Source: Owenia fusiformis (taxonomy: Eukaryota; Annelida; Polychaeta; Sabellida; Oweniidae). Taken from it: a stretch of 64,000 nucleotides of DNA. Location: positions 7,498,030 through 7,562,029 of the forward strand of contig CAIIXF020000009.1 of the NCBI GenBank assembly GCA_903813345.2, written 5' to 3'. Both the position numbers and the translations under genes were made by a program. Of the stretch, positions 6,113 to 48,900 are shown in pieces; position 1 is the first letter of the stretch; every line of letters starts with the position of its first letter. The notes beneath the pieces were generated by a model, which worked only from the letters and a program-made list of their open reading frames with translations, was not told the origin of the DNA and did not search any database.

Positions 6113-6145
6113 TAGAATGAGCTAATAATGAGTTTGATTAAATGG

Positions 6146-10420: not shown

Positions 10421-10424
10421 TTGT

Positions 10425-10860: not shown

Positions 10861-13800
10861 CTATTGGAGCATTAGTGATTTAAGGTTGTCTTGTAAAATA
10901 GTATCTTTGACTGCCTGGAACACAAACTTAATATTCTCTGTGTCAATGGCAGTGGTGAAATGATGAAATAACGGTTTGGACCTCTCACGACGTTTCGCAT
11001 CGAACATATTCAGCATGAAATTTTGAACGATGTCCAAGTCCCGTGGATCACCCTCGAAATCGGGAAAATAATGCTGTATGTTACTATGTTTGATCTTTGT
11101 CGTTAACAAGTCTGTTTTATTCAAAAATAATATAATGGAAACATTGGCGAAACATTTGTTATTGACAATTGTTTCGAAAATGTTAGTCGATTCAACGAGT
11201 CTATTTGTACTTCGATCCTCCATTAAGACCTGATCGAATTCACTAGATGAGGAGAGAAAGAGAATTGATGTGACGCTCTCAAAACACTGGAACCATTTTT
11301 GTCGCTGCGATCTCTGACCCCCGACATCCACAAATTTGAAGGGGATGGTTTTTATATCAATATCATATTCAACAATTCCTTTAGTTGCCTTCCTTGCATG
11401 CAGTATATCCTGTTTGGTTGGCCAGTAGTTCTGAAACAAAAAAAATTAGAATATATTTTTGTAACATTTTTTATGTTTATTTTGGGTTCTGTTTTTTGAG
11501 AGGTCTTCATGAATCTTAAAAATTGATCATTTGGCAGGACAAATTCAAATCTAAGACCATGGGAACCCTTTGGAAGGAGTTTGAATTTACAGCTCTATAG
11601 GAGATCTTCATCTTACTAGATAAATAACCCCGGATGTCAGGGTAATTATCTATTATCATATTTGACTGTACATGTACATTTAAAAAGCTACATATAGGCA
11701 ATAACATGCAAAATTTCACCACCTGCCATTTGTTACAGATACTGAACACAGACCGCTGAATGCCAAACACCATGAACTTGTGGTGATAACATAACTAGCC
11801 ATAAGTGAATAGGCCATGACTCTCAAACATATGGTCCAACGTACAAAGTAAAAGTGAAACCCCCTCTCCTCAATCACCAATATTGGGAATTGCAAGTCTA
11901 AAAAATTATTTTGATTCCCTCGAAATTCTAAGAATACACTAAATCTGTTTTAATAAATAAATTATATCCTATGATGCAGATGTATACAAAAAATCATAAA
12001 AAATGTTCAATGTAGTTGACTTCTCAATAGGAAGGTAATTGACCTTAAGATATTCCGCTATTACATATTTAACTCTATTTGAGCATGTCAATTTGATAAA
12101 TTATCAATTTCAGAGGAAATCCCTTGATGATTTCATGAGCATTCTACACCAGATTGAAAAATCGCAAAAGATCATTATATACTACAGAATTCAAACTATA
12201 TGGATTGCTCAATTTTCTGATATTTAATACAATATGAGAGATGTTTGAAGTTCATGCCCGTTTACTTGTTTTCTTGCTGTTTCCCCAATTTCCCAATCTA
12301 TGAAATCGATTACTGTGACATTTCCCTCTCTTGAGACAAATTACTAAATTGTAACATTTCTCTCTATCGTGACTTATTCCTCCATTTTGACATTTTCATT
12401 CACGGTGATATTTTCCTAAATTGTGACATTTCCCTCCATGGTGACATTTTTTTCACCTTGAGAATTTCCCTAAGGAGACATTACATCATTAAAATGAAAT
12501 TACTACATCTGATAAATAACATGATACAATAGAACACAATGAAATAACAAAAGATACTACGGGATAATAAGATAATAAAAGATAAGAGATGCCAGAAAAA
12601 ATATAAGCCCTTTATCCGTTCATCCAGGATTCTATTATTCTCTATACATCGCCCCTTTAGTAAAAAATGTTGGATTTCATTAATTAGAAAAAATAAATGA
12701 GCCATAAAGCAAGAAAAATTGGAACGTAAAAACATAAAATATATAACATGACCTCTAAATATTGTCCTGGAATACAAAAATAAGTTGGTGATTATTGCAA
12801 AGTAAAGTAAGAAAACGAGTAGATAAATGGATGTTGTTTTTTTGAAAGGAAATATCTGAAGGAAAAGCTGGATTTAGTTGCAGGATATCTTGATAAATTT
12901 TTCATGACAACCATGAGATTCAAAACGGATATCAGAATTTCTAAGAAAAATAATCAAGATAGCGTTTTAAAACACAGGTTATTTAATAAAGACCAGGATT
13001 TTATGATTTATGGCGCACATGACTGAACATTTTATTTTGTTCATTGTTAAAAGACCAAAATTGCGTAGCGATTGAGGTCTTTGGCAATGGCCAGAATAAA
13101 ATTTGAGGTCATATATTTGTCAAAAATTATAAAATTGAGGTCTTACGATTCTAAGATGATAAACGGAGAAGGAAAACAACTTTTTGCATTTCTGAATTTT
13201 AGCGGTCATATATACTCCAATATAGACCAGTTTATCAATTGTTTTAGCTATTGTGACGTCACGTATCATATTAGAATGTAAAATAAAGTTTTATAAAACA
13301 GGTTGTTTTCTGAAAATGAAAATCAATATTCCCCATTATCACATGGTTGCAAGGATATAGATCGAATATCACATGAAGATATATTTGCAGGGTTCTCACC
13401 AGGAAATTTTTAGACCCTGGATTTTTAGCGGTATTGTGACTACTTTTTTTTCGCGATAACGCAACTACTTCTCCCCCATGTGAGATCAGAGATATCCTAT
13501 TAGTATACTTTTCACCATACTTCTTAAGATTATCTTGCTATTTTAATCCCAATATTTATTTCTAAAAGGTTTCTGACTTCCTATTTCTTGTTTGTATCCA
13601 GTTTTATGTATTTTCTCAAGAGTTTTATCGCAAATAATGTGACAAAAATGTAAAATTAGACTCCGGAAAAAACACTTTAGACTCCGGAGAAGCTATTAGA
13701 CTCTGGAGCAAGAGATTTTAAGACATAAGACTCCGGAGAATCTCCGGAGTCTAAAAGACTAGTGAGAACCCTGTATTTGATATGTGGATCAAGATATCAT

Positions 13801-16800
13801 ATTTTAGCAAAAAATTCAAAAACCATCGAATATCACTTTTAAACTATCGAATATTACGTCTTAAAGAGTGATATTGGATGGTTTGAAAAGTGATATTTGA
13901 TGGTTTCGAATTTTTTTCAAAAAAAATCCTTTTTACATTTTCTAATTATTTTCAAAAATATTTTAAAAAAATTTCAACATTTTTTCACAATTTTTTTCAA
14001 TTATTTTTTCACATTTTTTCTCAAATTATATTTTCCACTTTTTTCGCTGATGATGATTTCCCATGGGACAAACAGACAATCCTATGGTTTTTCAAAAACC
14101 AAAAATTATCCACTCATGGATACAAATATCTTCACTCATTCACTGCGCTCACTCATGAAGATATCAATATCCACTCATGGATATAAATGATATTTTTTCA
14201 AAACCATATGATATTCTTATATTATTCAACGACAATGAAATTTCTAGCAATCTGATTGGATCATTTATCTTGTTAATGCAATAAATGATGAATCTTGTTT
14301 GTAAAATAATAGCTGATCAATAAAATTTTGCTGCTAACATTATCAAAAATAATAACATACATTTGTTCTACTAGTATTATTACTTCAATGAAATGAAGAA
14401 AAATTTCGCCAAATTATTGCAAATTGTTGCAGATGCTGAGCTACGACTGACAAACACTGAACAATATATCACACCCCAAAAAGTGTGAAAATATTTACCT
14501 TCTGACCAATTCTGTTTAAATTGTCCAGGAAATACTTCAGCGAATCACTCTGCAAACAGGAAAAAGAAACACATTAGTTTTTGATTTCATAAGTATAATG
14601 AAACTCATTAATGGTCATGCTTACTCTTTTTGGATCTTAGATGTTATAAACATGTCTAAGTAAACACTCCAGTGATCTCCCCAGGATTTTTTCGCAGGTG
14701 GGTGCAAACTTCTCATTTTCCTAATTAAGACCAAAATTTGTCAAAATATGCCAATTTTTCATGATTTTTTCTCATTTTCAAGTGGGTGCAAATGGATTTT
14801 CAGATGGGTGCAAGCCTATTTTCAAAATCTCATGTGGGTGCTCTGCTCACTTGCTTTAATGCTGGGGAGATCACTGCACTCATTTTCAGCACATATTCTA
14901 TTGACTTCTGTATAAAACTGTCTCACTGTAGTGAAAACTACCTACAGTGAACACATTTTGTAGCTAGGTAATCACATATGTTTTAATGTATGCTTATGTC
15001 TTATATTCAGAGCACGATGAAAGAGGCTCCAAAATTCAGAGTAGGGCATTGCATTACAGGCATTATTGTATTGTATCATATCGTATCGCATCGCATCACA
15101 TCGTATTGTCTCTGTTTTTAGATATTAACACAGCCAGATGATATCACCTTCATCAGTTTTATTATACGGCCGCTAGCTGAAATATGAGCTCAGATAAAAA
15201 ATCTCAATCTACTTTAAGTCAGAATTTTCCTGAATCAGCAAACTAATTTCTAAAAAATCATGCCAACGTTACCCTTTTCAAAAATGATATTACTTCTGGA
15301 TGCTTAATCTAAACTCTTGCAAAAGATAATCTTTGATCTGGCCATATAATTGGTCAATAAAAGTTTCAACTTAACATAACTTTCAACCTTCATCAGTAGA
15401 CAGAATTTATTTCTTTATCAAACTTACACGAAAAGTCAAAGTGGCTCCATTTGGGGTCATTAAGATTTCATTGCGATCACAATTATAAAACAAGTGAGTG
15501 ATTGCAATAGCTCACCATGTGAGCCAAAAAATTAATTGCCTGCTCTAGACAGAGAGGGTAGTGATAATTATTAGCCCCTGGGCAATAGGCTTTGACATCT
15601 TAGAAACAAGGCATTAAGCATACAAAATGTCACCACCTGCCATTTGTTACAGAGATTGACCGTTTTGTCATGATGAGAACTAGGAGATGCTACCCTGAAG
15701 TTTGAAGTAATAATTATGATGAAATACAGAAGGCATTGAATTATTGGCAACTCTGTAGTTACGAGCAACTGATGGATGACATAGACTTTCACAATGGGGG
15801 ATTATGATGTAATTGCATTAGGATGGAAATGGGAAGCTACGGGTACTTACCAAACCATGCGAAGATTAATCTCCACATTTCAAATCTGAGCCCCAGGAGT
15901 ATGTTATAAATTGTTTAAAGTGCCTTGGTGTACTTGGTATGAAATACTTTCACTTCAATATGGATGGAAAAGATGGAGAAATAGCAAAAGATTTGTTCAG
16001 AATCATGCAGTTTTTCAACATTCTGAGCATTTTAAAGTGGTTTTGGGCCAAAACTGTAAAATATGATCCTCCTGAAATTTTTGGAAAAGTGAATCCCTTG
16101 GCAAAGCTGGCAACTGGGCTGATTTTAATACATTTTATTAATGCATTCTTGAATCTTGGGCCTGTTTCAAATATTAAAGAGGTTAACTTTACTCGCATTT
16201 AAGAGAACTTAAATATAAACGTATGATTATATGACCCCAAGGAATTGTTGTCTACCACCTAATTGGTTTAAACATTATTACAACTTATTTCCTCACGCCT
16301 TCATACTCTATCGGGAAAATAAAGTCCAGTGATGTGAAAATAATCAATAGGAGACCATCATTTTACATGTTTCATATACTGTACATGTTCTTCAAACAGT
16401 GCCATATAAACCCTGCTATTTTATGGTACATCTAAAACTTCCAAATATCTATATTCAAACTAAAGGTATCTCTGCTCTATTATTCATTTGATGGTTTAAA
16501 CCACACAAACAATAAAATCATCCATAATAGCTAATTATTTATCATTTAACAATGTTTTGAGGTTCTTTAAATGATCAAGAAAATGTGGTAGGCCACACAG
16601 GGGACTAGAAAGTTAACCTTCTTAGCTTTTTCTATAAATTGTGGTAAACGGTTTAAAAAGCCATAAAACCTTTCAGAATGAAAAACCAATAATTGGCCTT
16701 GGTTCGTATATCAATTTGAACAAAACAAAAACTATTTCCTCATCTTTATAATTTATTTTAAGACTAATTGAGACTGATAGCTCAGTTTAATACAGCCTAC

Positions 16801-22800: not shown

Positions 22801-25800
22801 CTGGCAGTAAAATATATCAGAAGGTTAAATGTTACCCTTGATTTATATAAACATCACATTATGTGTTGTGAGAATAAGTACTGACAACTTTTAGAGGATT
22901 CACTTGATAGGGAGAGTGAAGTTGAACACATAATAAATCAGGAGACAATGGATTGCTATATTCTACACTATGTACTTTGTTTATTTATGCTGCTATTTAG
23001 CATGGAACTGTCTTTTGTGACTTGTGTTGAAGGTTCTGCAGTTGCCAGTATCCCATGTGACTGTGAGCAATTTTCTGACACAGTTAACCAACTTTCAACA
23101 ACCATTGAGAAACTCCATAGTAAACTTGATGAACAAGCTACAGAGATTGCAACTTTACAAAGAGATGTTATAAAAAGTGAGATTCTCATTGAACAGTTAG
23201 ATGATACATGTACTCAGAGTTGCAAAGGAAAACAAGGACAACCAGGAAAACGTGGATTTCCAGGTAAAAAAGGAAAGAAAGGTGAATCTGGGCAGAAAGG
23301 TCAGAGGGGAGCGAGAGGATATAGGGGACCCAAGGGGCCAATTGGTGTCACTGGTGTTAACGGTAGTAAAGGAGAAAATGGTCTACCAGGAGAAAAGGGC
23401 AGTCCGGGTTCAACTGGGATGCGAGGAGAAAAGGGAAGTCCAGGAGCAACTGGGCCCAGGGGAGAAAAGGGAAGTTTGGGAGCAATTGGGCCACGAGGAG
23501 AAAAGGGAAGTCCAGGAGCAATTGGGCCGCAAGGAGAAAAGGGAAGTCCGGGAGCAAATGGGCTGCAAGGAGAAAAAGGAAGTCGAGGAGTAATTGGGCT
23601 GCAAGGAGAAAAAGGAAGTCCAGGAGCTACTGGCGCGAGGGGAGCAAAGGGAAGTCAAGGAGCAAATGGTCTGAGAGGTGAAAAGGGGGCAGCTGGCAGA
23701 TCAGGTACCAGGCAAAGATTAAAAGCTCTATACCCAATTTGGTTATTCCTATTAATTTCATTGATATTATTAGGAGGCCCTTCATGGCCCTATAGTTTTT
23801 GTAGTTTTTCTTCTTTTTGTTCTTCTTATTAGACTCCAGACCACAATCTACAAATTGGCAGGAGTTCAAATCTGACCTTACTTTTGACCTTTGGTTGACC
23901 TTCAATGACATCCGAAAGGTCAAAAGAGTTGATTTTTAGTTATCAAAGATTATGTTTTATTATGAAAAATTGACACAATTTTGAAATTTAGAGACCATCT
24001 TAAAAATATCTTCTTGAGCAATGTTCCTTTGTCCTTTGGCATCAGCATATAAAGTTTGAACAAAATCCATCAAATAACATTCAGGTTATCAAAGATTACA
24101 TTTTTCTATGAAAAATGGCAGCCATTTTGAATTGAATGGGAATAAGGTGAACAGATTGTAGGTCACCGTTACTTACTGCTATATAGGTGGATAAACCCGT
24201 TTTTTTAAGTCAGCGATTGGGTTTGATGCGATAGGTTGCAGCTACTGGGAAGCGCAGCAGGTACTCTTCATATTTAAATGAGTTTGCCATCAAATTGAAA
24301 TCAAACTGGTAGCCATTATTTGCATTACCAAATACAAGCTCAGCGACGGTCGCTTTCTTTTTTAGACTGTAAATGGTCAAGCTGGAGTGAGTGGAGTAAC
24401 AGGCAATGCATACGTAGTAATTGTTATACACACTCGGTGGAAGTTGTGAGAAGAAGATACCATTGCCTGTATGGAACAGTTCCAGAAACCAAGACTGTTA
24501 CATGCTATAAGGATCATAATTGTGAAAGAAATTAAAAGGTGAATTTGATCGAGTGGATTTGACTCATGTAAAAGGTGGATTGGATTTGAAATATTGAAAA
24601 TGTGGAATTTCTTTAAAGTTTTTTTCTGTTGATCTCCCTCTAAGAAATTTCCCTCGAAAGTATCTTGTGATCACTTGGGCCCCTTTGAGGAATCAGAACA
24701 AAGCAACAACAACAAATATAAAATCCAATTAGTTGATAGATACTCCTTAAGTATTAAACTGCTTTCCCTTGTATATCAACTTTTGTAAGACATAATAAAC
24801 ATAGATCTGTAGATAAAAGCTGTCATTCAAATTGATGTGTGGATGTTCCTAAAACATTTCTCCTGGTTTCTGTTTGGACTGAAAACAGATGATATGGATC
24901 TTCAAACCAGTCTGCCTTATGATTTATAAATGTCTCAAATTATACTTGGAATGAATAAGAAAGCGGGTACCAGTTCACTCTTCAAGCCAACCCAAGCAAA
25001 ATAATATTACATCTATTATTTGACATTGTCGAAGTGAGGAGAGCACCAATCTTTATAGAGGGAGATGAATAGAATTTTTTTAAGGAAAATCCATATTTCA
25101 AAGATTCCTGATCCAATCCACCTTTTACATGAATGCAATCCACTCGATCCAACCCACCTTTTACCATGGCAATTGACGCCACAAGAGCTAGACATTTGGA
25201 TTATTATCTGGAATTTTGTAATATTTACACAGGATGTCTGAGTCAACATTACATAATTATACATGTATATAAATAATACAATACACGTTAGGCAAGAATA
25301 GAAACTGATATAAAGCAAAAAAAACATGATAAGACACTTCAAAAATATCATCATACAGACATTTATGATTAATTTGTTCAAATGAAGTCAAATGGTATTT
25401 TTTGCCTATTTTCTATCCTGGGTAGATCTAGAATCAAGAATATTCACCTGAGGGTTAAAAGACACCTGCATTGTCATTTTACACACTTTATTAGCTTTAT
25501 CATAATGCCAAAACAGAACATTTTCAAGTATTGTCACCTGAGGCCAGACTCTTAATACTTCCTGATTAGAGTCAGTATAAATATTACAGTCTGTAGAATA
25601 TATTCTGTCATTAATCAGCCGGGCTAATGTAACGATGTGGTCGCAACTCTAGTGTATATTTTTCATGTCTTTCTGTGACTTTTTTGAATTTATTTTTGTC
25701 TCTTGCATATTTCTTGTATCTTTAAATTTAGAGCCATTGCTTAATTCGAAGAAATACTATTTATAGCTTTATTGTATAGATGCAATTTGCAAGGTACGAA

Positions 25801-31800: not shown

Positions 31801-33729
31801 TTTATGTCAAATATATGACCACAAATTTTATTCTGGCCATTGCCAAAGACCTCAATCGTTACACAATTTCAGTCTTTTAACAATGACCAGAATAAAATTT
31901 TCGGTCATAAATCATAAAATCTTGGTCTTTATTCCAAGAATAAATATTCCAAATAGCACAATATGAATAGAATACAAGAATACAATTATTCAAAATCAAA
32001 ATATTTTGATAAATGTCTAAAAGACATTTCCCTTTTTTCGAAACAGCAGAACTACCTTATCAAGGAAACAAATTTCTGACCAACAATAACACCTATAACA
32101 ATAACATGCATCATATAGCTAGGTCCAGAATTTTGATATTCCACTCCTGAATAATTTCATGAGTTTTAATTTCGCGAATTTTGAAAACATAATTGTGCAG
32201 CTATTAAATTAAGTTGATTTTACAACATTAAATTTCCTTATTCTATGATTCCTCAAGGTATCTAAACTAATGAAACCTCATTCCCAAATGTAATTATTGG
32301 TCAACCGCACACTGAACCTCAACCTCTATTACATTTATGTTTTATTTGATCTAATAAGCCAAGAGTCATTGTTGCTAGTATCTCATTATCACCCCATAAC
32401 ACTGAACTCGCATTTTACACATTTTCATCTACTGATACATCCAGGCTCCTCTACTGTATCCTACCGCCATCTTGACAGATGAGCGATTTTTCTAAAATAC
32501 TCAGGAATTTTTATTGAGGTTTATTATTTTTGTCACTTATTCATGCCCCTAACACCAACAAAGTATACAAGTGCAGGACTACAGTGCTGGTATATATTAA
32601 TTGATCAGTCGTTTAATTGGCATATTTTCTTGAATTTTAACATTTAATGTCCCAAACTCCCACAAACTGCAGAAAAGTATACACCATAAATCATATTTAC
32701 CAAAATTAGTGTCTCCAAGGCTTCACACCAGCGTATGCATTATGCATTTGTCACGAGTTTGAGCTGAAATTTCCCCAAAATGAAGTAGGCTAAGGGTAGT
32801 CTCTGCCAGGTTTGTTTATTGTGGTAAGCTTGTAAGTGCTCAGAAGCAAATAATTCACGTGCGCAAAAAATCAAATAATATGATTGGTTCAAACTTTGCT
32901 GCACATGCGCACAATATGTGCCAAATTTTTTCTAGTGATTTCGTTTCGTTTCATGGAGTTTCCGTTTCAGTGTATCTTCCGCAAAAATGGCTGACCATGG
33001 ACAGAATTAACAGGTAAAATCACTTCGAAATTTCAAGAGAACTTTTTACCTATAATAGCAAAACTTTTGTTTTATTTGTGCATTCTATCTATCAGATAAG
33101 AGTCTCAGGGGTATGTAGGCAAATTCATTTTGGTAGGAGCACTCTGTTTAGTTTGAAAACGCACCCTTAATTATTATATATCAGCACTATACTTGAACTG
33201 GAAAATGGACAATGATTGTCCGCTACTATAATTATTTCACAATTTTAGGGATAAAGAATCTACGTACCAATTGAAATTCACGGCGACGATCAAAGGCAGT
33301 TTGAATTCCGCTGTCATTCCACAGACTTTTTATCGAAGGCACATATTCGGCAAAATTCTGTTCATCTAATTTCATGTTGTTATCGTAACTGAAAACATGT
33401 TTTGCGTGAGTACGATTTTCGTTATCTCCATAAGGTATGTTCAGCTTTTCAGAAGCGTCTATTAATACTTTCATCCCTTTTACCACATTTTGGTAAATAA
33501 CAACTTTGAATTCCAAAATATCTTGATCACCAAATTCTTTCCCATGGATGATTTTCATTTGTTTCAAAAATGTACTTTTTCCACTTTCACCAGAGCCCAA
33601 AAGTAAGATTTTTACGGTTCTCCTGAAATGTATCTTCTCTTTGGCTAGTTGTTTGTCGATCATTTTGCTCTTGTGTCGCTGTATTTGGGTATCTTCCGAG
33701 CCACAGCAAGACATGATGATGTCCGCCAT
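10861..33729 (-). CDS. GNA13-like: Heterotrimeric G-protein alpha subunit, G12/13 class
   Basis: The product is a membrane-associated GTPase that couples receptors to RhoGEF/Rho signalling (family knowledge). Three coding exons on the minus strand join in frame: 33729-33268, 14549-14499 and 11430-10861, giving 360 aa. Each boundary has GT/AG; exon 1 ends before GTACGT and exon 2 before GTAAAT. Visible hallmarks are the P-loop GSGESGKS (45-52), DRRREFQL ending exon 1, the switch I ARKATKGI region with Arg184 and Thr187, switch II DVGGQ (206-210, catalytic Gln210), NKTD (275-278), TTAIDTENI and the C-terminal LMLQ typical of G alpha 13. The N-terminal Cys8-Cys9 could be palmitoylated. Met6 is an alternative start. 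Human GNA13 is 377 aa, so the length fits. Intron 1 (18.7 kb) holds the antisense collagen-TSP1 gene. The gene shares a promoter with the peptidase gene. Confidence 0.95.
11690..11772 (-). repeat. Core dispersed repeat copy (CAGGTGGTGACATTTTGC family)
   Basis: The minus strand reads GTAACAAATGGCAGGTGGTG followed by an ATTTTGCATGTTA-like tail, the same core seen at 15600, 44940, 52340, 58900 and 62890. It lies in G alpha intron 2. Confidence 0.7.
12290..12482. repeat. Degenerate GTGACATTTCCCTCC array
   Basis: About seven imperfect units built on GTGACATTTCCCTCCAT, spaced roughly 20-30 bp, in G alpha intron 2. No coding potential. Confidence 0.6.
12483..12980. other. Intronic AT-rich stretch, nothing recognised
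   Basis: Part of G alpha intron 2. The 98-codon minus-strand frame (Phe/Ile/Leu-rich) has no recognisable homology and looks like AT-rich chance coding. Confidence 0.4.
12985..13285 (+). repeat. Dispersed repeat of about 300 bp, copy 1
   Basis: Related in inverted orientation to 31630-31935. Shared blocks are AAGACC...GATTTTATGATTTATG, GAGGTCTTTGGCAATGGCC, CCAATATAGACCAGTTTATC and CTATTGTGACGTCACGTATC. The block carries internal inverted words (CATTGTTAAAAGACC against GGTCTTTGGCAATGG), suggesting a hairpin MITE. It contains a full CRE palindrome TGACGTCA. The 69-codon frame here is not preserved in the other copy. Confidence 0.7.
13388..13773. mobile_element. hAT-like MITE with 6-bp target duplication
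   Basis: The left end is CAGGGTTCTCACCAG and the right end is the reverse complement CAGGGTTCTCACTAG, flanked by an identical TATTTG on both sides (13382-13387 and 13774-13779). The subterminal part holds repeated TTAGACTCCGGA words (13655-13755) ending in the palindrome ACTCCGGAGAATCTCCGGAGT. No transposase is present, so the element is non-autonomous. The CAGGG terminus is typical of hAT-type elements; the 6-bp duplication is shorter than the usual 8. Confidence 0.75.
13790..14215. repeat. AT-rich low-complexity block with inverted words
   Basis: The segment contains CATCGAATATCAC and its inverted counterpart GTGATATTTGATGG, long TTTTTTCA runs, and CCACTCATGGATA repeated around an ACTCATTCACTGCGCTCACTC centre. 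The two overlapping plus-strand open frames of about 98 codons are Phe-rich translations of the T runs and not genes. Confidence 0.5.
14670..14876 (+). mobile_element. CAGTGATCTCCCC-type MITE, copy 1
   Basis: Terminal repeats are CAGTGATCTCCCCAG on the left and its near reverse complement CTGGGGAGATCACTG on the right. Inside are repeated GTGGGTGCAA words and CCAATTTTTCATGATTTTT. The same structure is at 31065-31250 and, inverted, at 49475-49735. It sits immediately upstream (minus-strand sense) of G alpha exon 2, about 120 bp into intron 1. Confidence 0.8.
14900..15590. other. Intronic stretch with a small pentanucleotide tract
   Basis: 15065-15115 is an irregular ATCGT/ATCGC/ATTGT pentanucleotide tract. 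Otherwise no repeat or gene is recognised in this part of G alpha intron 1. Confidence 0.5.
15594..15665 (-). repeat. Core dispersed repeat copy
   Basis: The minus strand carries TCTGTAACAAATGGCAGGTG followed by GTGACATTTTGTATGCTTAATGCCTTGTT-like sequence. It matches the core at 62890-62945 closely. Confidence 0.75.
15985..16150. repeat. GGCCGTAGCC-family relic
   Basis: ATCATGCAGTTTTTCAACATTCTGAGCA followed by GTTTTGGGCCAAAA and a CTGAAATTTTTGGAAAAGTGAA-like segment is related to 19655-19785 and, inverted, to 47872-48010. The two overlapping frames of 82-87 codons in both directions come from this repeat. Confidence 0.55.
16200..17280. other. Intronic stretch, nothing recognised
   Basis: G alpha intron 1. 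AT-rich, with no exon, RNA gene or recognised repeat. Confidence 0.45.
17295..17475. repeat. GGATCTGGGAACCAAC relic with G/C runs
   Basis: GGATGGATCTGGGAACCAAC followed by a G run, repeated GGCCCAAATTTT words and a C run. A related GGCGGATCTGGAAACCAAC lies inside the element at 49550. It is probably a decayed MITE; the open frame of 70 codons is spurious. Confidence 0.45.
17636..17797. mobile_element. CAGTAGAACC-type MITE, diverged copy
   Basis: The left end is CAGTGAAACCTGTATATCTG and the right end is the inverted GATAGGTTTCACTG, with TA following on the right. The internal words GAACAC and GTCCCA match the family at 18108 and 48658. Confidence 0.7.
17893..18004. mobile_element. Short fold-back element, about 110 bp
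   Basis: ATTCTAGTCTTGC at the left pairs with GCAAGACTAGATTC at the right. The interior has a C-rich/G-run pair (GTGGACCCCCCA against GGGGGGGTTCA), so most of the element can fold on itself. Confidence 0.6.
18108..18284. mobile_element. CAGTAGAACC-type MITE with TA duplication
   Basis: A 177-bp element. The left end is CAGTAGAACTTGCTAAGT and the right end is the inverted ACACAGGTTCTACTG, flanked by TA at 18106-18107 and 18285-18286. Internal GTGGAACACCTC words repeat. TA target and CAGT terminus are typical of pogo/Tc1-mariner MITEs. It is close to the copy at 48658-48835. Confidence 0.85.
18290..19610. other. Intronic stretch, nothing recognised
   Basis: AT-rich DNA in G alpha intron 1, with short chance frames on the plus strand (73 and 79 codons) lacking homology or splice support. 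Confidence 0.45.
19620..19790. repeat. GGCCGTAGCC-family copy with G run
   Basis: A run of about 20 G, then ATCATGCAGTGATCACCATTCTGAGCAC, TTTGGGCCATTTTGGACCAAAATTG and a GGCTACGGGCC-like end. It is related to 47872-48045 in inverted orientation. Confidence 0.65.
19800..20640. other. Intronic stretch
   Basis: No gene. About 20578-20625 repeats the GCAAAATAGAGTGAAAAGGAGTGGAA word seen near 8770. Confidence 0.45.
20641..21235. mobile_element. Larger, decayed relative of the CAGTAGAACC family
   Basis: It starts CAGTAAAACCTGTATATTAC and ends with the degenerate inverted GAGGTTTTGTTGTA. Inside are GAACACCTCTATAATCAGAAC and GTCCAAGTGGTGTTC, as in the short copies. The extra internal sequence includes two related blocks ACAACGTTGACCCAATAAGTGAACTGGAAGG and AACGCTGACC...CAAACTGGAAGG-like, suggesting an internal duplication. 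Confidence 0.5.
21240..21930. other. Intronic stretch, nothing recognised
   Basis: No supported feature other than a short G run near 21857-21868. Confidence 0.45.
21935..22115. repeat. Degenerate TTATGATTTGGGGGTCATATACC array
   Basis: About six imperfect units of 23-35 bp based on TATGATTTGGGGGTCATATA. Confidence 0.65.
22116..22840. other. Stretch upstream of the collagen-TSP1 gene
   Basis: No repeat or exon recognised. The 73-codon plus-strand frame at 22439 has no support. Confidence 0.4.
22844..22851 (+). promoter_or_regulatory. Candidate TATA box of the collagen-TSP1 gene
   Basis: TATATAAA lies 97 bp upstream of the start codon. This predicts transcription starting near 22875 and a 5' UTR of about 70 bases. 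The call rests on motif and spacing only. Confidence 0.45.
22948..24535 (+). CDS. Secreted coiled-coil/collagen/TSP1 protein
   Basis: Two exons, 22948-23704 and 24366-24535, join through a phase 1 intron (TCAG|GTACCA ... TTTTTTAG|ACTG) to give 308 aa. In order: a hydrophobic N-terminus (about 1-27), read as a signal peptide or signal anchor; a Cys pair C37/C39; a heptad-like segment (about 40-85) likely to trimerise; Cys88/Cys92; an uninterrupted Gly-X-Y stretch (94-252, about 53 triplets), the second half built from a 12-residue GEKGSPGA-type repeat; and a C-terminal domain starting [15 protein letters not shown] with six cysteines, a thrombospondin type 1-like module. The probable role is extracellular matrix or a soluble trimeric lectin-like protein; partners are unknown. 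Reading through the donor gives a false 294-aa end. The gene is nested antisense in G alpha intron 1. Its stop codon abuts a long-TIR transposon. Confidence 0.85.
23391..23690 (+). repeat. 36-bp tandem repeat inside the collagen exon
   Basis: The DNA repeat GGAGAAAAGGGAAGTCCAGG plus a variable 16 bp recurs about eight times, encoding 12-residue Gly-X-Y blocks. Unit length is a multiple of nine, so copy-number change preserves the collagen register. Shadow frames on both strands (66-130 codons) come from this array. Confidence 0.85.
23710..24365 (+). other. Intron of the collagen-TSP1 gene
   Basis: The 661-bp intron contains two related blocks beginning TATCAAAGATTA (23941 and 24089), each followed by a TATGAAAAATTG/TATGAAAAATGG segment. 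Otherwise it is unremarkable. Confidence 0.5.
24537..25168 (+). mobile_element. Long-TIR DNA element, copy 1
   Basis: The left arm AAAGGTGAATTTGATCGAGT... and right arm (ending GATCCAACCCACCTTTTA) are inverted copies over more than 100 bp, including ATGTAAAAGGTGGATTGGA and TGTTGATCTCCCTCTA. The middle has no transposase. A second copy in opposite orientation is at 39935-40600. This copy begins two bases after the collagen-TSP1 stop codon, so it supplies that gene's 3' UTR. Confidence 0.8.
25170..27120. other. Intronic stretch, mostly featureless
   Basis: G alpha intron 1. 26435-26490 is a weak core-repeat relic (AAATGTCACTACCTGTAAATGG). 26290-26395 has a loose TTTTGAGGTGTTCA repeat. No gene recognised. 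Confidence 0.45.
27150..27425. repeat. 30-bp minisatellite, about 8-9 copies
   Basis: The unit is ATTTATTTGCCCTTGCCTCA followed by TAACTCTTAA, almost identical across the central copies and degenerating toward 27540. A 30-bp unit keeps one frame, so the two minus-strand frames of 86-100 codons are simple translations ([10 protein letters not shown]-type words). No gene inferred. Confidence 0.85.
27550..28190. other. Intronic stretch, nothing recognised
   Basis: AT-rich DNA with no supported feature. Confidence 0.45.
28195..28395. mobile_element. Probable relic of the CAGTGATCTCCCC MITE family
   Basis: ATATGCCATTTTCAATTTTTTTACTTATTACCAGTGGGTGCAAAAA-like sequence and TGTTGCTAGGGAGAC match the order of words in the intact copies (14670, 31065). 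The ends have decayed. Confidence 0.45.
28400..29975. other. Intronic stretch, nothing recognised
   Basis: No gene or clear repeat. 28900-29170 is rich in GACAAAT/TGACAA words without a regular period. Confidence 0.4.
29982..30128. mobile_element. Fold-back element, about 147 bp
   Basis: The left arm GAGCAGGTGTTATATCGATG and the following AATACATCCCGCAGGGCT pair with the right arm AGCCCTAAGGGGTGTATTCATCAATATTACACC. Arms are about 44 bp with a few mismatches and a short loop. Confidence 0.65.
30130..31060. other. Intronic stretch, nothing recognised
   Basis: AT-rich DNA in G alpha intron 1 without supported features. Confidence 0.45.
31065..31250 (+). mobile_element. CAGTGATCTCCCC-type MITE, copy 2
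   Basis: Ends CAGTGATCTCCCCAGGA and GCTGGGGAGATCACTG. Internal words match copy 1 at 14670 in the same orientation (ATATGCCAATTTTTCATGAT, GGTGGGTGCT). A 64-codon frame from inside the TIR is a shadow. Confidence 0.85.
31495..31590. repeat. Short palindromic TACATGTATATGCAAG block
   Basis: TATGCAAGTACATGTATAT occurs at 31501 and again at 31560, with the self-complementary GTATATACAATATACATGTATA between. It could form a cruciform; function unknown. Confidence 0.5.
31630..31935 (-). repeat. Dispersed repeat of about 300 bp, copy 2
   Basis: Inverted relative to 12985-13285, with the shared blocks GATACGTGACGTCACAATAG, GGTCTATATTGGAGTAT, GGCCATTGCCAAAGACCTC and CATAAATCATAAAATC. It contains another TGACGTCA palindrome. 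Confidence 0.7.
31940..32880. other. Intronic stretch, nothing recognised
   Basis: No gene, RNA or repeat recognised within G alpha intron 1. Confidence 0.4.
32930..33020 (+). other. Possible orphan first-exon-like segment
   Basis: CG-containing sequence GATTTCGTTTCGTTTCATGG leads into AAAAATGGCTGACCATGG and then AACAG|GTAAAATC, a donor-like site. The frame from the ATG stops after seven codons. It resembles a 5' exon/promoter, but no downstream partner was found, so it may be chance or a decayed duplicate of the start at 33939. Confidence 0.2.
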
Positions 33730-33938
33730 GATCGAGAATGTTTACCCCGCCCATGACGTCATCGCCCTACTTCCGGTTTCGATGTAACCAGATTAATCCG
33801 TTTTAAAGGTTTTAAGGGATGCACACAACATATCAAATATATTATCAATCGATTTGGCTATTCACTTTATTGATTCAGAGCTGTAATAATAGAAGAAAAC
33901 GGTTGTGAAATGATTATACCCAGAATGCATCATTCAAA
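33730..33938. promoter_or_regulatory. Bidirectional promoter of the G alpha 12/13 and M3 peptidase genes
   Basis: Only 209 bp separate the two start codons, which face away from each other. Near the G alpha side lie CCCCGCCCA (33745-33753, GC box), TGACGTCA (33754-33761, CRE) and ACTTCCGG (33769-33776, ETS/GABP type) within 32 bp. There is no TATA box. Both start codons sit in ATGGC contexts (CCATGATC..GTCCGCCATG on one side, AAAATGGCAGCC on the other) resembling YY1 sites. This combination is typical of divergent housekeeping promoters (established knowledge); activity is inferred. Confidence 0.7.
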
Positions 33939-39900: not shown

Positions 39901-42900
39901 CAGTCACTCTGTTATGAACCTTTCCGAAATAGTGCCATTCCGAAGGGTAAAGATTAAAAGGTGGATTAGATCGGTGGATTTGATTCATGTAAAAGGTAGA
40001 TTGGATTGGCTATCTTCAATATATGGATTTTCCTTTAAAAAATTCTATTGATCTCCCTTTAGGAAGATTGGTGCTCTCTTCACTTGCACAATGTCAAATA
40101 ATAGATGTAATATTATTTTGCTTGGGTGGGCTAGAAGGATGACCTGGTACCCGCTTTCTGATACATGATCTTATTCATTCCAAGTGTAATTTGAGACATT
40201 TCATAAATCATAAGGCAGACTGGTTTGAAGATCCATATCATCTGTTTTCAATCCAAACTGAACATACCAGAAATGTTTTGTGTACATTCACACATCAATT
40301 TGAATGACAGGTTTTCTTTTTCTAAAGATCTATGTCTTACAAAAGTTGATTTACAAGGGAAAGCGGTTAAATACTTAGAGTTTCCATGAACTAATTGGTG
40401 TATGTATTTGTCATTGCTTTGTTCTGATTTTTCAAAAGGGACCTCTAATACTGTAGAGGGAAATTGTTTAGAGGGAGATCAACAGAATTTTTTTTATAAG
40501 AAATTCCACATTTTGAAGATTCCCGATCCAATCCACCTTTTACATGAATCCAATCCACTCGATCCAATCCACCTTTTAATCTCTACCTTCCGAAGCCAAA
40601 TGTTTTTGACCAAACTGATGAGATTTGTATGATGTACATGTATGTATATATGACAATGATTTGGGTCAGAGCCCTTGTAGCTGAAAAATATTGCTTGATT
40701 TTTTATTACTCATTCATTTACAGGAGGGATATTGCTATGTTGCTCGGCTACGAGAACTTTGCACAAATGTCCATGGAAACCAAGATGGCTGGAAGCATCG
40801 AGAATGTCATGAACATGCTTGACAGGTAAGACATCATAGATGGATTTATTAATGGGTGAAACATGATTTATGAATAGATGAAACATATTCATTGATGGAA
40901 GAAACATGATTTATGATTTATTAATGCCTGAAACATGATTTACAAGTACCGTATTCTCTGTAATTAGCGCCCACTCTCTAATAAGCGCCCATCCCGCTTC
41001 ATAAATTTGGTAGAATAAGGAGGAAAGACAGAGGAATGTGAAAATATCAGTTTTATGGAAAAATCAGATGGGCGATAATACAGGAGTCTGCCACTTACCT
41101 GAGCTAACGTTGAAGTTTACACTTCCCCAGTATATTTTCAAGTTTAGAAATATCGTCCTTGTTTCCTTGGAATGTATATTTAGCAGGCAGTTCTAGTCCT
41201 TTGCCATTGTTTTGGCGTTTACCTTTGATAATGCCAGTTATATGTCCACCGCGTTTTAGGAAAAAATTGAAAACTTTTGAATATTCTCTCGGAACATGGC
41301 CAATTATATTGTTATTTTCAAGCACTTGTGTTGCATATTTGTCGAAGGGATTATCTTTCTCTATTCGGCAATATACTGAGGTATTTTCCGATGCATTGCA
41401 TGTCCCAATATAGTTATGATAGCCTCTAATAACTGACGAAAATGTGAATGCTTCAAGTTCCTTCCCCGTCGCCATTTCCAGCACATGAATTCGCCAATGC
41501 GCATGTCTTCTGCGCATATAGCCAAAAATTAATAGGGACGGATCAAGCAAACGTAAGAAATCAGGTGATATGGTTAATTTGTCGTCTGGGCTAATCTTGA
41601 CTCCAAATAAGGTAACTAAATCGTACATGTCTTTGTTCTAATAGCATTGCAATCAAGAGTCACAAAGAAAAGGTAGGTACAGGTATACTCCAAATAAGGT
41701 AAGATAACATAAATGCCTTTGTTTTAAATGTCAGAATTGTGTCAATCAAATGTCAACTTGAACAGGTAAGAAAATGGGAGGTACTAGAAATTTGAAAATT
41801 GGAACAAAGACTTGGCACTAATAGTCCCGACCAACAGTCAATCCAACGACATGGAAGGTGAAAGAGCAACAAGCAGCCACAAAGGACAAAAGATCAGAAG
41901 TTTTACAATGAAGTTCAAGTTAAAAGTTTGTGAATACGCTAAAGTGCAAAGTATAAATGCAGCAAGCAAAGAGTTTGATGTTGATAGGAAGTGTGTACGG
42001 GAATGGCTAAAACAGGAAGATAAGCTTAAAGAAGAAAGCAAAGAATACACCACCAGGAGAAGATGTCTAAGTGGAGCCGGGAGGCGGGTAGAGTTCTTAG
42101 ATATAGAGAAGTGGGTGTTAAGTGAAATCGTTAGAAGGAGAGAAAAGGGTGAGTCATGTTTTTATATTACCCTCCCCCTCCCGATATTACCGTATTAATT
42201 TTAAGCTAAAATGTAGTAAAATACATCGGAAATCCAATCCCCATTCTTTTGCTTTCATCAAATGCATTATTTTTTAATTTCTTTTTTGATAGGAGGTCGC
42301 GTGACTGGAAAAATGATTAAGAAGTTGGCCCTTAGGCAACACAAAATTAATGGTAATCAGCAGTTCAAAGCCAGCTGCGGCTGGCTGAGAAGTTTCATGA
42401 AGAGGAACAACTTGTCCTTTCGCAGAAGCACCCATGTAGCCCAGAAGTCCAGGTCTGAGTTGGACGACAAAATCTATAGCTACTTACGCTTTATAAACCA
42501 ACTGAGAAAACACAGAAACTATGATATCTCTAACATAGGAAATATGGACGAAACCCCAGTCTGGGTAGACATGCCGGGAGATTCGATGGTTGACACTAAA
42601 GGCCTGAAGACAGTCAGTGTATCTAGCACTGGCCACGAGAAATCAAGGTAAACATTTGATCCGTCCCCGTAATAAAATCTCTGTTCTATTTACGGTCATA
42701 AAAACCAATAAAATATTGAGGGGGGCATTTCTTTTATTGTAATTTTGAGCGGACTACTTTTCAGAAATGTCAGGGGGGATTTAGATTTGATCCCGTGTTA
42801 TATATTTGCAATTCGCATGTTCTATATTTTGCTAATTTCAGGATGTCAGTTCTTCTCACTTGTATGGGTGACGGCACCAAGAAGCCACCGTTGGTTTTTA

Positions 42901-45900
42901 TTAAAAGGCAAACGACCACCCAAAGAGATTCCCCTTGGTGTGCAGGTTCTAATGACACCCCAAAGCTGGTGCAATGAGAGCGTGTGCCACTACTACCTAA
43001 AGAATATCTGGAGGAAGAAGACGGATAAAAGACTTCTTGCGTGGGATTCTTACAGGGCCCATATAACCCCTGGGGTTAAGATGGCCACAAGGAATGCCTT
43101 TAATACAGACATGGCTGTCATCCCAGGAGGCTGCACGAGTTATTTGCAGCCCTTAGATGTCAGCATAAATAAACCATTCAAAGGTATGATTAAAGTATGA
43201 TGATTAATACTATTATGCATGTATTAAATGCCAGACAGTAAAGAATTACTGCCACATGTAAATTGCTACAACTTGATGTTTTAGACCGCTTCCGGGATGA
43301 GTACGATGAGTGGCTGGTGGATGGCCCTGTGGATCTTACCAAGGGAGGCAACAGACGCCCACCAGACAGGCCAACTCTCCTACGCTGGATAAAGTGTGCA
43401 TGGGATTCAGTCAGGCCAGAGGTAACCTAAAATGTTTCCATTTTAACCACTCCTCATTTAAATTAAAATATAATAAAAAGTTTAATAGCCTACGCTGGTA
43501 TATTTTCTATTTTTTAGATTATCAGGAAAGCATTTCTTAAGTGTGGGCTAACTGTAGCCATGGATGGTTCCCAAGATGATTTCCTATTTAACAATGAGGA
43601 TGATGATGATGATGATGATGATGGTGATGATCCATTTGAGGGGTTTTGCCAAGGCTCCATAGATGCTGCTGGTCAACTAGTAGAGAATTTAAGATTTGAC
43701 GTTGATGAAGACATGTACAACTCATCAGATAATGATGAAGTATCTAAGTATGAGAATAGTAACAATGAGGATGACGATCCCATGTCGCCAGGGCGATAGA
43801 CTAGCTGTATGGAATATATGTTCAATTCAAATAAAAAATTTGAAGCACCTCAAAACGTTTCTATGTTGATTGTTGAGTAATTTTTTATTTACTAGTATAT
43901 TAGCCCCCCCCAAGGAGGATTGCCAATCCTCCTTGAGCCCCCCCTTGGGACGGTCCACGATATTTCGAATTTCAAAGCGAGGCTTACTAAAATACTAAAC
44001 TGAAAATGTCGGTTCGTTTCTTTTCCATCGAATGCTACATTTATTGGTAATATATCGTGAAATTGTGGTAAGTACAGCATTGACCAGCTTTGTTTCGAAA
44101 TACTGGCTTTAAATGAATGAAATAAATGTTAAAATAGCATAATGATTCGACATTAGACAAACTGGATTTTCTCAATTTCTGCCCAGGTCCAAAATATCGG
44201 CATGTCAAGGTCGTGAACTTTCTAGTTTCTTTTTAACGATTCTTGACTTTTACACGAAAATGATGATCTGTCATCAAATTAAAGAAAAGGTGTAACTTTG
44301 ATCGATATCCAACAGTCTCTAGTAGAAAAATTGAAGGTAATGGTCGATAATGACAAAGTGGGCGTGCCGAAAATAAATTAGACAAATATCACTGTCAATA
44401 TTGTCTAAGCGATCTTTACCGTATTCTCTCCAATAACAATACTTATCATTATTTTAAAAATATGTTGAAAATAAGAGCATTCTTGACAAGAAAAATTGCC
44501 ATACATGAAATTCCCCGGGATTTCTGATTTTTTCATACATGGGCGCTAATTAGAATGGTCTAAATGATGTATTTTCAATTTTCTAACCGCCCTGGGCGCT
44601 AATTACAGAGAATACGGTAATATGTTTTTGGCTTGATCGAGTCACAAATAATATTCATGATGAATCTTGATTGATGTCCGTGACATAAATAACAAACAAG
44701 ACAAATGTCATGGACATTTTTCTTTTATATTTCAAAATAAATGCAAATTCAGGAATAGCTGCTCATATAGATGGCAGATATGAGTGGTTCTTCACACTTG
44801 TGCCATTCATTGGTATGAGTGTAAATATTGCGGTCTCAGTACTTCACATGCACTACAAATCAATCTTACATCAAACTTGTATTCTTTGAGATATTTCTTC
44901 ACAATTTTTGTTATAGTCTTTTTTTGTGGATGGTGTTGGCATTTGGTGTCTGGTTCTCAGCATTTGCTGCCTGTAACAAATGTAACAAATGACAGGTGGC
45001 AACATTTTGCATTTTAATGCCTTGTTATTTCTTTATTTTTCTGAGGAAATCGGACAACAATGGTTCAGGTAAATCGTAATAAATCCTATCGATGTCATAA
45101 TTATTCCTGACATACACCATGTCATCTGAGTTGACATTATCATTCTTAGAGCTCCATATAGTGAGTGTATAGGAGCGAGACTGATCCAAAAGGTACGACA
45201 AGTTTTCCCATGATGCCTTGACTAGGGAGGCTCTTATTGGAAATGTGATTGGTTGTTTAAACTCCTTGGCATAGTCAGCCATTTCTTGTACCATACCTCT
45301 TGTGTAAATCTCATTCACTCCAGAGTTGTTATAACCTGTTGTCCAACCAATTGATAAAGTGCATTCTGGGAAATATTTCAAAACGAGGCGCTTGAATTCT
45401 GTAGCGTTAACAGGTTGTGCTTTACCATTAGGACCCGCAAGTATATCTGCATTGATCCAAACTGGTCTCTTCAGGTTTGTTTTTGAGTTATTCAAAATCT
45501 TGAGGGATGGTTCGAATACTTCAATAGATTTAAAATCCAGTTTAATTCCCTTGTTTGAGGGTATTACAGATTTCAGCCATTCTTCTAATGTGTTATCACT
45601 ATCAATCAGGGGAGGATGTGCCATTATTGGAATGTCTGTCTGGTTGGCTGTTCCCTGGCCCCTTAGAAGAACATCAGCCTCAAGCATCATAACTTCACCT
45701 TGAAACAAAATTAGGCTTGGATTAAATATAGAATTGGATTGAATAATATGAAATACATGTAATAGCATCATTGCAATATGCAACAACAATTATGCTTTGA
45801 GCATATAATGGCATTAGACTTGTCTAGTGTGAATCAGTCTCTGATAATCTCAAGAGAAAGATTGTCTTGGATTTAGTCAGCCCTGACGATGTTTACTTAC

Positions 45901-48900
45901 TGTTAAGAGCATTCTTAAGTTGCTGCTTGCTATTTGCTGCATGTGCCCATGTGACTTTAACCCCATCTCTCTCTGCCGCTAGTCCGGGCAGATAATTAAA
46001 CAAGCTACCTGCCGTTTCAGCCAACTGTTGAAATATGACATATTTTGGACCTTTCAGATCGTAATATATCTTTTTCTTATCGCAATCGTTCCTGACGTAA
46101 AGTAAATCATAAGGATCGGCACCTTCCCATGATACCTCTGCACTCGCGGGTGTCCATGCAGTTATAGTGTACCCATTAGATTTCCCGAGCAGCCATTTAA
46201 AATGTGTCCAGGCATATTTGAATGACGATGCTCTTGCTGGGAACGTTATTGGCTGAGTCACATTCTGTATGAGTTGCCATAGTGATTCAATGTGTTGTTT
46301 TGTGTAGTTATAGCCGTGACTAGTGGTCCATCCAAGTGACAAAGTCACACGTGGGAAATGTGTGTTGACGGCTGTGAAGAACCTGTTCAGTATACAAGAA
46401 GATTTCATCATATTGCCTTGTTTTGCTGGGTATCAGGCCTGTCAACTTGGGAACACTAAAACGAGTGACTTACAAATGTTGGGGGTAGGGATAAAAAAAT
46501 TCGAGGAAATGCGTGACATATATGCAATTGGTGGGAAAATTCCAGTTTTTCCATTGTTCTTTATGTTTCTGAGCCTTCATTTTTTATGAAGATTTTTTAC
46601 ATGACAATAATCAGAAAAAATGGGGATTCACATGACAAGGGTGACTTTCTTCAGCAAATGCATGACAAAATACACAAATTTTGGGACAGTTGACAGGCCT
46701 GGGGTATGTGTGTGGGTGGATGTCACATAAATCTTGTCATCAAAACTTACTATATAGTATCTGTGTAACCTGAAATTTTTCATCTGATTTATAGTCTAGG
46801 TACATTTACGTATTTTTATGCTGATTGCAGTGGTCTTTGCCATTGCACTCTGCTACACATTCAAATTCCATATTGAACCATCATAACCAATATCATCAAA
46901 TAGATAAAGGCCCGATGCAAATTTTGAAACCACTATAACCAATTATCAAATAGATAAAGGCCCCACGCAAAGTTTGAAGCCACAAAGTTGATGCTGCTAT
47001 GACCAATTTTGAAAGATAAGTTTCAGTTTTACCTTGCAGCATTAAAGTTTGGAGCATCTCCCCCAGGCCCCTTTACTAGATCTGCATTCACCCACACTGG
47101 CTGTGACACCTTTTTCCCCTTGGCTTTCAACATCTGTAGGGATGGGGCTACGACTTCTTCATTCTGTAATACGATGGTGTAAGACTTAAATCACCCTATA
47201 CATGGCACAAAAGGCAGATTTAGCTTTCATATGATATATCATTTTCAGAATAACTCCTTTTAGATTTGAGGGTAAGACCATTTTTGAGTCAATGGAAGTT
47301 TTCAGTTCATTTCCGCAAGAGTAAAGTCTGTGCTTGACCAATCAAGATCAAGTACATAAACATCGAGGCTCGACCAAAATCAAATTTATTATGAAAATTA
47401 AACAATTCTTACTTTAAAGTCAAGTTTTGGTGCCTTGTCATTTCTGTTGAGTATGTCATTTAACCACTCGCTCAATGTCAGGTCGCTGTCAATATTTGGC
47501 GGGTGGGCCATTATAAGCTCTGATGTCTGATTGGTCAGTCCCTGGTACCTATATACTATATCTCCTTCAATCATTTTGTAATTCCCCGCAAGGGCCTCTT
47601 GGATCTGAGCTTTGCTATTGGCTCCATGGTACCATGTGACCTTCATGGCATCATCCAGTTTGAAATATTTTAATGGATCCCCAGCTGAATCAAACGCTGT
47701 AAATAAATCAAGAATTTAATAAACACCCTACAATATAAATCTTTTTATGTTACCACCAGAAGTAAATGCTAAAGTAAATGCTAAAAGTCATATTGAATGA
47801 AATGAAATGATAGCATATTGGATTTTCCGCATTATTATAAAATGTTAATGACATAGTTTTAGATAAAACCCCAGGGCCGTAGCCAGCTTTCAGTCGGGGG
47901 GGGGGGAGATTTCCAGGGGAGGTTCATTGTTGACAATTTTGCTCCAAAAATGGCGAAATCACTTAAAAAGTGCTCAGCATGGTAAAAAACTGCATGATTT
48001 TGGAAGAGATTTTGGCCAGGGGGGGGGGGGGGGGGGGTGGGGGTATGCTTAGTAAGTAGTTCTCTATCCAGGTAAATATTTGCTTAGATAGAGAAATTAA
48101 TTGATCGCCCCTTGTATATGTTACATATATTGTCACATTTGATTCGAAAGTTTCAATCTAAGTACACATTTTAGAGGAAATGTGAGTTATTTTTAAAATA
48201 AAAAATTGCTTACAGTAATGTTTTATTATACATTTTTACCTGGATCTGTCTGTTGTTGTAGCGACACTACAATTAATGTAATCACTATGGCAACTGCTAT
48301 AATCGCTAATACAACTGCGATAATTGCATTCCTGAGCCTGTTTCTCTTCACTTTGCCATTTGTTAAGGTAATATTGTAATCTTTAGCCATCCTGTGAACA
48401 CCAAGTTATAACTAGGTTATATTTAGTAATATAATCAAGAGCACAGTATTGTCAATTATAATGTGTTAATCCTTTTCATGCAGCTCCACTAATGATGTAC
48501 ATTTACATGTATTTTAGTGTACAATCATGTATATGTCTGTTGCATATCAGTGAATTCATGGTTAAAGATAGACTTCGTTTTGATCATGTATTCAGGCTTT
48601 TGCTACAGTTTTTTCCTTAAAATCCTAATTCCATTTTCAGAAAATAGAATTGAAGTACAGTAGAACCTGCTAAGTCCAACACCTCTGTAAGTGGAACACC
48701 TCACAAGTGGAACAGTGTTTTAATAGTCCAATGGTCTATCTACTACTTGTTAATGAACACTCTGTAAGTGGAACACCTCCCAAGTTGAACACTTTTTGTG
48801 ATCCAAAGTGTGCTCCACTTACACTGGTTCTACTGTATTGTCAATTTCATTCAGATTTTATTTTAATTTAGAATGCAGAAATGTCTTAGTTCATTTGATT

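Follow-up and report, generated by a model that had tools for sequence, protein, structure and literature searches.

Within a 64,000-nucleotide stretch of the genome of the annelid Owenia fusiformis (contig CAIIXF020000009.1, positions 7,498,030 to 7,562,029; this whole stretch is called the window below) lies a DNA transposon of the pogo superfamily that encloses two divergent genes between inverted termini, one for a transposase and one for a stand-alone protein with a HIRAN domain. The same pairing is present in two further elements of the source genome (G000, 498 Mb, the one genome searched), and we think that the HIRAN gene is very probably an ancestral accessory gene of this pogo lineage, maintained by selection, because the divergent pairing occurs in three diverged elements, the HIRAN loci have related termini and the gene bears the mark of purifying selection. 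Since the pairing recurs in distant relatives, HIRAN seems to be a helper gene retained over a long time and not a chance acquisition. Judging from the sequences, the gene predates the split of at least three element classes (A, B and C; a fourth, D, is known from HIRAN fragments only). The two-gene lineage is real in this one genome, where three elements and termini of four classes attest to it. That the HIRAN gene has an accessory role is well supported; how it acts is far less certain and is taken up further below.

The element in the window

With its TA target duplications the element spans 40947-44619 of the window (Table 1). A previous reading made from the letters alone (the sequence-only reading) had placed it at 40949-44617; the matching inverted termini that it described are there, and the TA, which it left out, belongs to the arms. 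Its account of the layout is otherwise borne out: ORF (open reading frame) and Pfam searches place a plus-strand transposase and an open minus-strand HIRAN ORF inside the terminal inverted repeats (TIRs), the ORF coordinates leave 222 bp between the two gene starts, and among the best 25 of 27 inverted pairs none encloses HIRAN without transposase sequence, as would a second set of inverted repeats. The two arms form the longest perfect inverted pair in an inverted-repeat search of 4.6 kb around the element. Their 27-mer has 189 exact copies in the genome (88 forward and 101 reverse, the element's own two counted) and none when read backwards, which is why we take it for a real repeat terminus. 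The tandem 18-bp repeat in the left end is possibly a transposase-binding repeat, and the spacer between the start codons is a candidate two-way promoter.

Two further elements with both genes

A search of the genome with the HIRAN protein (E up to 0.001, 29 of 29 candidates scored) gave 23 matches at 21 places, two of the places being split in two; the HIRAN protein of one of the relatives, on C134, gave 15 matches and no new place. A search with the DDE exon of the transposase gave eight matches (15 of 15 candidates scored). C134 repeats the arrangement of the window in both order and orientation, with the HIRAN gene on the minus strand (10308-10811) and the DDE exon on the plus strand (11817-12149). 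This class-B element (L016, 2650-5871) is 3,222 bp long, has TA on both sides and termini of the form TACCGTATTATCTCTATTAAACGCACA, its own two ends agreeing at 26 of 27 positions. Its HIRAN gene is open, the divergent start codons are 57 bp apart, and the conserved exon pieces of its transposase are open too, with 54-62% identity to the exons in the window. The two HIRAN proteins are 50% identical over 121 residues, and 42% when tblastn extends the alignment to 161 columns.

The third element, on C2, belongs to class C. Its transposase exons (L017, 2044-3726, minus strand) and HIRAN gene (L018, 5094-5428, plus strand) are again divergent, here 10 kb apart. In the joined stretches its outer ends (left 1620-1931, right 14281-14577) both match all five class-C short copies tested, at 79% and 86% for the copy L010, and because both recur in these deletion derivatives we regard them as the ends of one element. 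Its left terminus is degenerate (6 mismatches in 27), and its HIRAN gene is broken by one stop and one frameshift. The interior holds an ORF of 404 amino acids (10570-11781), reverse-transcriptase-like by reading of the ORF only, and a pair of inverted 1.2-kb repeats (83%, joined coordinates 5194-8923), which points to later insertions nested in the element. The element is flanked at its two ends by direct repeats of about 121 bp (84%). The HIRAN copies of C134 and C2 are 50-64% identical to that of the window. The expectation of several TIR-to-TIR copies with both genes is thereby partly borne out: the divergent pairing exists in C134 and C2, and no second full-length class-A element was found among the 40 of 248 candidates that the DNA search scored.

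Termini at the HIRAN loci

Each of the 21 HIRAN loci carries one or more related termini of the TACCGTATT... kind, in four classes, and HIRAN is thus not bounded by different termini of its own, the outcome that the sequence-only reading had named as telling against it. Class A was the first pattern, and classes B and C were read afterwards from its hits and are therefore post hoc. With these three patterns, 19 of the 21 places have a terminus at no more than 6 mismatches in 27. They match 33 times in the 62,678 bases of the HIRAN loci; reversed, they have no match across the 21 loci, and the true patterns have none in the 60 kb of the window that surround the element. Two places remain (C8:11240k and C10:17140k), and these have a fourth type, TACCGTATTATCGCCTATTGGCGCACA, called class D, which was defined from one of its two loci; the other end of the same copy differs from it at 3 positions and the other locus at 1. 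Reversed, the D pattern is absent from its two loci, and a single match with 9 mismatches occurs in L030. The loci divide into 1 of class A, 4 of class B, 14 of class C and 2 of class D.

An outward-facing terminus lies 101-166 bp beyond the 3' end of the HIRAN match in 15 of 21 loci (at L001 and L005 the scan took inner repeats, and the true distances are 133 and 141); the remaining six have a terminus on the other side only. Both ends fall within the searched stretch in 12 of 21 loci, 393-3,222 bp apart. Most class-C copies probably descend from a few deletion events, so that the independent evidence consists of the classes and not of the 21 copies.

Selection and divergence between classes

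The ratio of nonsynonymous to synonymous differences per site (pN/pS) of HIRAN is 0.44 between A and B (121 codons, 50% amino-acid identity, bootstrap interval 0.33-0.60), 0.41 and 0.26 in two parts between A and C, and 0.35 and 0.34 between B and C, against 0.29, 0.33, 0.43 and 0.41 for the transposase exons between A and B; synonymous sites are saturated (several pS > 0.75), and these are pN/pS and not dN/dS values. Selection on the HIRAN ORF, on which the sequence-only reading had speculated, thus appears as purifying selection between the classes (0.26-0.44, compared with 0.29-0.43 for the transposase), and the alignments support a HIRAN gene under constraint like that on the transposase. 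The identity of HIRAN between A and B by codon position (0.59, 0.75 and 0.38) is a coding pattern. At the DNA level only four stretches can be aligned between A and B. HIRAN is the longest (202 bp, 67%); the others are a transposase piece of 44 bp and the two element ends. The identities of HIRAN and of the transposase loosely agree in placing A nearer to C than to B. Class B and its short derivative on C6 (L020) differ by too few changes for selection to be judged.

The HIRAN protein

The HIRAN proteins of the window and of C134 score 32.6 and 36.4 bits with the Pfam model PF08797, whose curated cut-off is 24.7. Searched over the genome, this model finds three places, all inside these elements and all among the 21 HIRAN loci. 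Among solved structures, phmmer gives the window protein 12 matches, of which the best four are the HIRAN domain of HLTF (E 0.0007-0.0017); seven rows of STAT1 (E 0.007-0.015) we take for chance. Twenty-four of 86 aligned residues are identical to HLTF HIRAN. That domain is described as a barrel of six strands in which Y72 and Y93 line the sides of a dinucleotide pocket, Y72 being one of two stacking tyrosines (PMC4666394, in the passages available). Like the domain in HLTF and Rad5, the proteins are HIRAN by Pfam and phmmer, and classes A to D keep three residues of the pocket, N91, an aromatic residue at 93 and the next Asp (numbering from the passages of PMC4666394 and PMC11237066, classes B, C and D being placed by alignment to A). 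Unlike it, the protein here stands alone, with neither helicase nor RING, and Y72 and N90 are changed. A single-sequence structure model had a pLDDT (the predicted local distance difference test) of 36.5, too low for use of the fold.

Several points weigh against our reading of HIRAN as a selected, end-binding helper. The codons behind the ratios given above were taken from the best protein alignment, which lowers pN (saturation, for its part, raises the ratio). The stacking Y72 of HLTF is replaced by N in class A, by E in classes B and C and by D in class D, and N90 has become D in classes A, B and C. A full-length open HIRAN gene is found in just two copies, those of the window and C134. No host HLTF appeared when the genome was searched with the Pfam HIRAN model (all 4 candidates scored), a search without an HLTF query in which intron-split genes could be missed. 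Finally, five relics of the transposase have no HIRAN match in the fetched stretches (best chance match E 0.11, in L034). Taken together, the kept and the changed residues of the pocket are only partly encouraging for binding to 3' ends.

Copies without HIRAN

Three of these five relics (C10:35601k, C12:9455k and C12:9477k) come from searches with exon 2 (12 of 12 candidates scored) and exon 1 (7 of 7), and two more (C6:21165k and C78) from the search with the DDE exon. None has a recognised terminus on the HIRAN side, and some are truncated or scrambled. The relic on C78 has one class-A terminus with 1 mismatch, which inspection by eye assigns to the end away from HIRAN, and those on C10 and C12 have single terminus matches with 8 or 9 mismatches only. 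HIRAN is present in all three transposase loci that are known to keep the HIRAN-side end, an end which was partly recognised through HIRAN. The relics neither refute nor support the two-gene reading. That on C10 (L030, C10:35596500-35605500, at 4451-5156) is without the introns of the window element and its first catalytic Asp is changed; because it reads through the intron positions it looks like a copy of spliced RNA, which would not carry the antisense HIRAN gene. The two C12 relics (L033, 9450000-9459900, and L034, 9472000-9481900) are 22 kb apart, each with pieces of exons 2 and 3 close together; in one of them an exon 1 piece lies on the opposite strand, and neither has recognised termini. 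At C8:8225k (L035, C8:8221500-8230500, at 4156-4416) an ORF of 224 amino acids with 31% identity to the Brinker-type exon 1 has no termini; it is a host gene or part of another element and is uninformative for the pairing. In viral_contigs, 46 stretches matched a pattern and none was confirmed as a relative.

One might suppose that a single element copy had gained a host HIRAN exon and carried it as a passenger. HIRAN occurs in only one class-A copy, and among the best 40 of 248 candidates 37 of 41 matches to the left 904 bp of the element cover bases 1-62 only and are without HIRAN, so that many class-A copies are short forms lacking the gene; at least six pairs of the 27-mer ends stand 784-790 bp apart among 100 places listed. 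We nevertheless consider such a one-off capture scarcely credible, and refuted within this genome: the same pairing is found in C134 and C2 at 50-64% HIRAN identity, all 21 HIRAN loci lie at related termini, the C2 ends are shared with the short copies, and the gene is under purifying selection between classes. Full-length copies with the same TIRs and without HIRAN, the other outcome named earlier as telling against the idea, were not found in the DNA search, which scored the best 40 of 248 candidates. A host HIRAN locus near which elements landed, and a neutral passenger, were both set aside on the evidence of selection, termini and element ends. We do not follow the suggestion that an open HIRAN gene beside a frameshifted transposase fits action in trans. 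A single copy underlies it, and of the 21 HIRAN copies in the genome 19 are themselves partial or broken.

The transposase and its family

BrkDBD, HTH_Tnp_Tc5 and DDE_1 each score above their Pfam cut-offs in the transposase of the window, which is split by introns (GT/AG ends read by eye) that the earlier reading did not have. The frameshift that it reported is real: exon 3 begins in one frame and continues in another. Terminal inverted repeats with a TA duplication, helix-turn-helix domains and a DDE_1 domain with a DDD triad, whose residues come from exons 2 and 3, place the element, by its sequence features, in the pogo superfamily.

The family is less clear. According to section 8 of PMC7386202, Passer has BrkDBD with HTH_Tnp_Tc5, and Tigger has CENP-B_N; a Tigger transposase would be expected to show CENP-B_N together with HTH_Tnp_Tc5, or the latter by itself. 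In the window BrkDBD reaches 33.6 bits (cut-off 23.4) and CENP-B_N 16.6 (cut-off 21.2), which makes the previous label of Tigger doubtful; in the C134 transposase BrkDBD is above the cut-off and HTH_Tnp_Tc5 below it (18.9 bits, cut-off 22.2). With Tigger the element has in common a pogo-type transposase and the TA duplication, and the range of DD29-36D in that family takes in the 36 residues between the second and third D in elements A and B (DD36D). With Passer it shares, as far as the available passages of PMC7386202 and PMC9976928 go, the TA duplication, a TIR of 25 bp beyond the TA (most Passer TIRs are shorter than 30 bp), the three domains BrkDBD, HTH_Tnp_Tc5 and DDE_1, and its length (3.2-3.7 kb, inside the 1.6-4.0 kb of Passer). 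It differs in DD36D, almost all Passer elements being DD35D, in its intron-split transposase, and in its second, divergent HIRAN gene, where PMC9976928, in a figure legend, has a single transposase gene. BrkDBD with HTH_Tnp_Tc5 thus suggests Passer, DD36D departs from it, and we leave the family open.

Possible roles of the HIRAN protein

The autonomous form would consist of two divergent genes, for a transposase and a stand-alone HIRAN protein, with joint expression driven from the intervening spacer. The second product would bind free 3' DNA ends produced by transposition, either the cut ends of the element or those of the donor gap, and, once bound, would protect or steer the strand-transfer complex and its repair. 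Taken as a whole and with end-binding included, this is the explanation towards which we lean. That HIRAN works at DNA ends or forks during transposition we put forward tentatively, and would call nearly but not quite an even matter.

In the variant that we favour, the HIRAN protein would occupy the 3' ends that host translocases of the HLTF/Rad5 type would otherwise grip to evict the transposase. As a shield against host HLTF, and hence a counter-defence carried by the element, it might be the transposon counterpart of viral antagonism of HLTF, which we think unlikely; dominant-negative action on host HLTF/Rad5 at the cut ends as the sole role is equally doubtful. HLTF HIRAN binds a 3'-OH single-stranded end, and the isolated fragment HLTF 1-180 hinders HLTF both in stripping Cas9 off cut DNA and in resection (PMC11237066, in the passages available). 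In primary CD4 T cells, HIV-1 fared better in competition assays when HLTF was depleted, and its Vpr, which binds to the HIRAN domain, brings about the degradation of HLTF; previous experiments on other cells, however, had shown no benefit to HIV-1 from the loss of HLTF (all from passages of PMC11360348). Also against the variant are the changes at Y72 and N90 and the missing match to a host HLTF HIRAN in a search that can miss intron-split genes.

HIRAN might instead target replication forks, guiding the transposase or the element that it has excised to 3' ends there; movement or insertion would then take place during replication, much as is discussed for PCNA binding by pogo transposase. In the passages of PMC5371812 the Drosophila pogo transposase binds PCNA and has a PIP box (a PCNA-interaction motif) of unclear function, which according to these passages Tigger and Lemi1 retain. 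We found no PIP-box pattern in the six frames of elements A and B with introns left in, and HIRAN could stand in for it. Against this, the transposase could bind PCNA even where the pattern is missing; we find fork targeting by HIRAN rather improbable.

We give as little credence to a third view, that HIRAN binds DNA in order to regulate the element, for example at the shared promoter or at the element's ends, and has nothing to do with 3' ends. The divergent starts, over 57 bp in C134 and 222 bp in the window, would suit cross-regulation, and the residues of the 3'-end pocket are only partly kept, but the HIRAN domain of HLTF binds ends. We know of no HIRAN protein with sequence-specific regulation.

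Features and neighbouring sequences

Table 1. Parts of the two-gene element, in coordinates of the window
Feature	Coordinates	Strand	Evidence
Left TIR with TA target duplication, class A, HIRAN side	40947..40973	+	27/27 complementary to 44593-44619
Tandem 18-bp repeat in left end, consensus CTCTCTAATAAGCGCCCA	40956..40991	+	TRF, period 18
Open HIRAN-domain ORF of 174 aa, taken as one exon	41104..41628	-	Pfam HIRAN 7e-08
Spacer between divergent start codons, 222 bp	41629..41850	.	ORF coordinates
Transposase exon 1, BrkDBD	41851..42148	+	BrkDBD 3.6e-08; exon end by eye, GT/AG
Transposase exon 2, with HTH_Tnp_Tc5; NMDETPVW contains the first catalytic Asp	42293..42647	+	HTH_Tnp_Tc5 5.2e-09; ends by eye
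Transposase exon 3, DDE_1, second and third Asp, DD36D, early frameshift	42842..43183	+	DDE_1 5.5e-11; ends by eye
Transposase exon 4	43285..43421	+	59% identity to C134 exon, 44 columns; ends by eye
Transposase exon 5, acidic C-terminus, stop	43518..43799	+	tblastn matches in C6, C2 and C134 copies; open frame; start by eye
Internal copy of terminus near right end	44416..44434	+	89% complementary to 44602-44620
Right TIR with TA	44593..44619	-	27 nt, 100% complementary to left arm

About 120 bp to the left of the element, at 40629-40829, is a Peptidase_M3-like exon (21 bits, below the cut-off of 27), and because this adjoins it the element may sit in an intron. To the right, on the minus strand, lies an ORF with a Menorin domain (45025-46432, Pfam 3.9e-88), and an ORF of similar appearance is at 45893-46432. 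Elsewhere in the window are two minus-strand parts of a G-protein alpha subunit, C-terminal (10861-11445) and N-terminal (33232-33741), 22 kb apart, and an ORF of collagen repeats (22885-23832, Pfam Collagen 6.1e-30) with an N-terminal hydrophobic stretch seen by eye.

Significance

Pogo elements have one or two ORFs encoding transposases (PMC7386202, in the passages available), and neither that paper nor PMC7325037 contains the word HIRAN. Our literature search of titles, abstracts and passages, with Repbase and most subscription journals outside its scope, met no description of a HIRAN-carrying pogo element or DNA transposon. The nearest likeness is with the TBE/Tec elements of ciliates, of the Tc1/mariner group, which are also DDE-type transposons with extra ORFs, one of them in the complement; they belong to a branch other than pogo, and the extra Tec ORF that is named is a site-specific recombinase (PMC7325037, in part). 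The pogo reviews cited describe elements encoding transposases, and a second gene, HIRAN, which comes from a family that recognises DNA ends and is under selection over deep divergence, is unexpected.

If our reading is true, the cut-and-paste transposons of eukaryotes, too, evolve specialised helper proteins to handle DNA ends, and host HLTF as a barrier to transposition becomes directly testable. Animal gene sets contain many uncharacterised HIRAN-only proteins, which may be of the transposon kind; our results suggest HIRAN transposons as a possible origin of such stray HIRAN-only genes in animal genomes.

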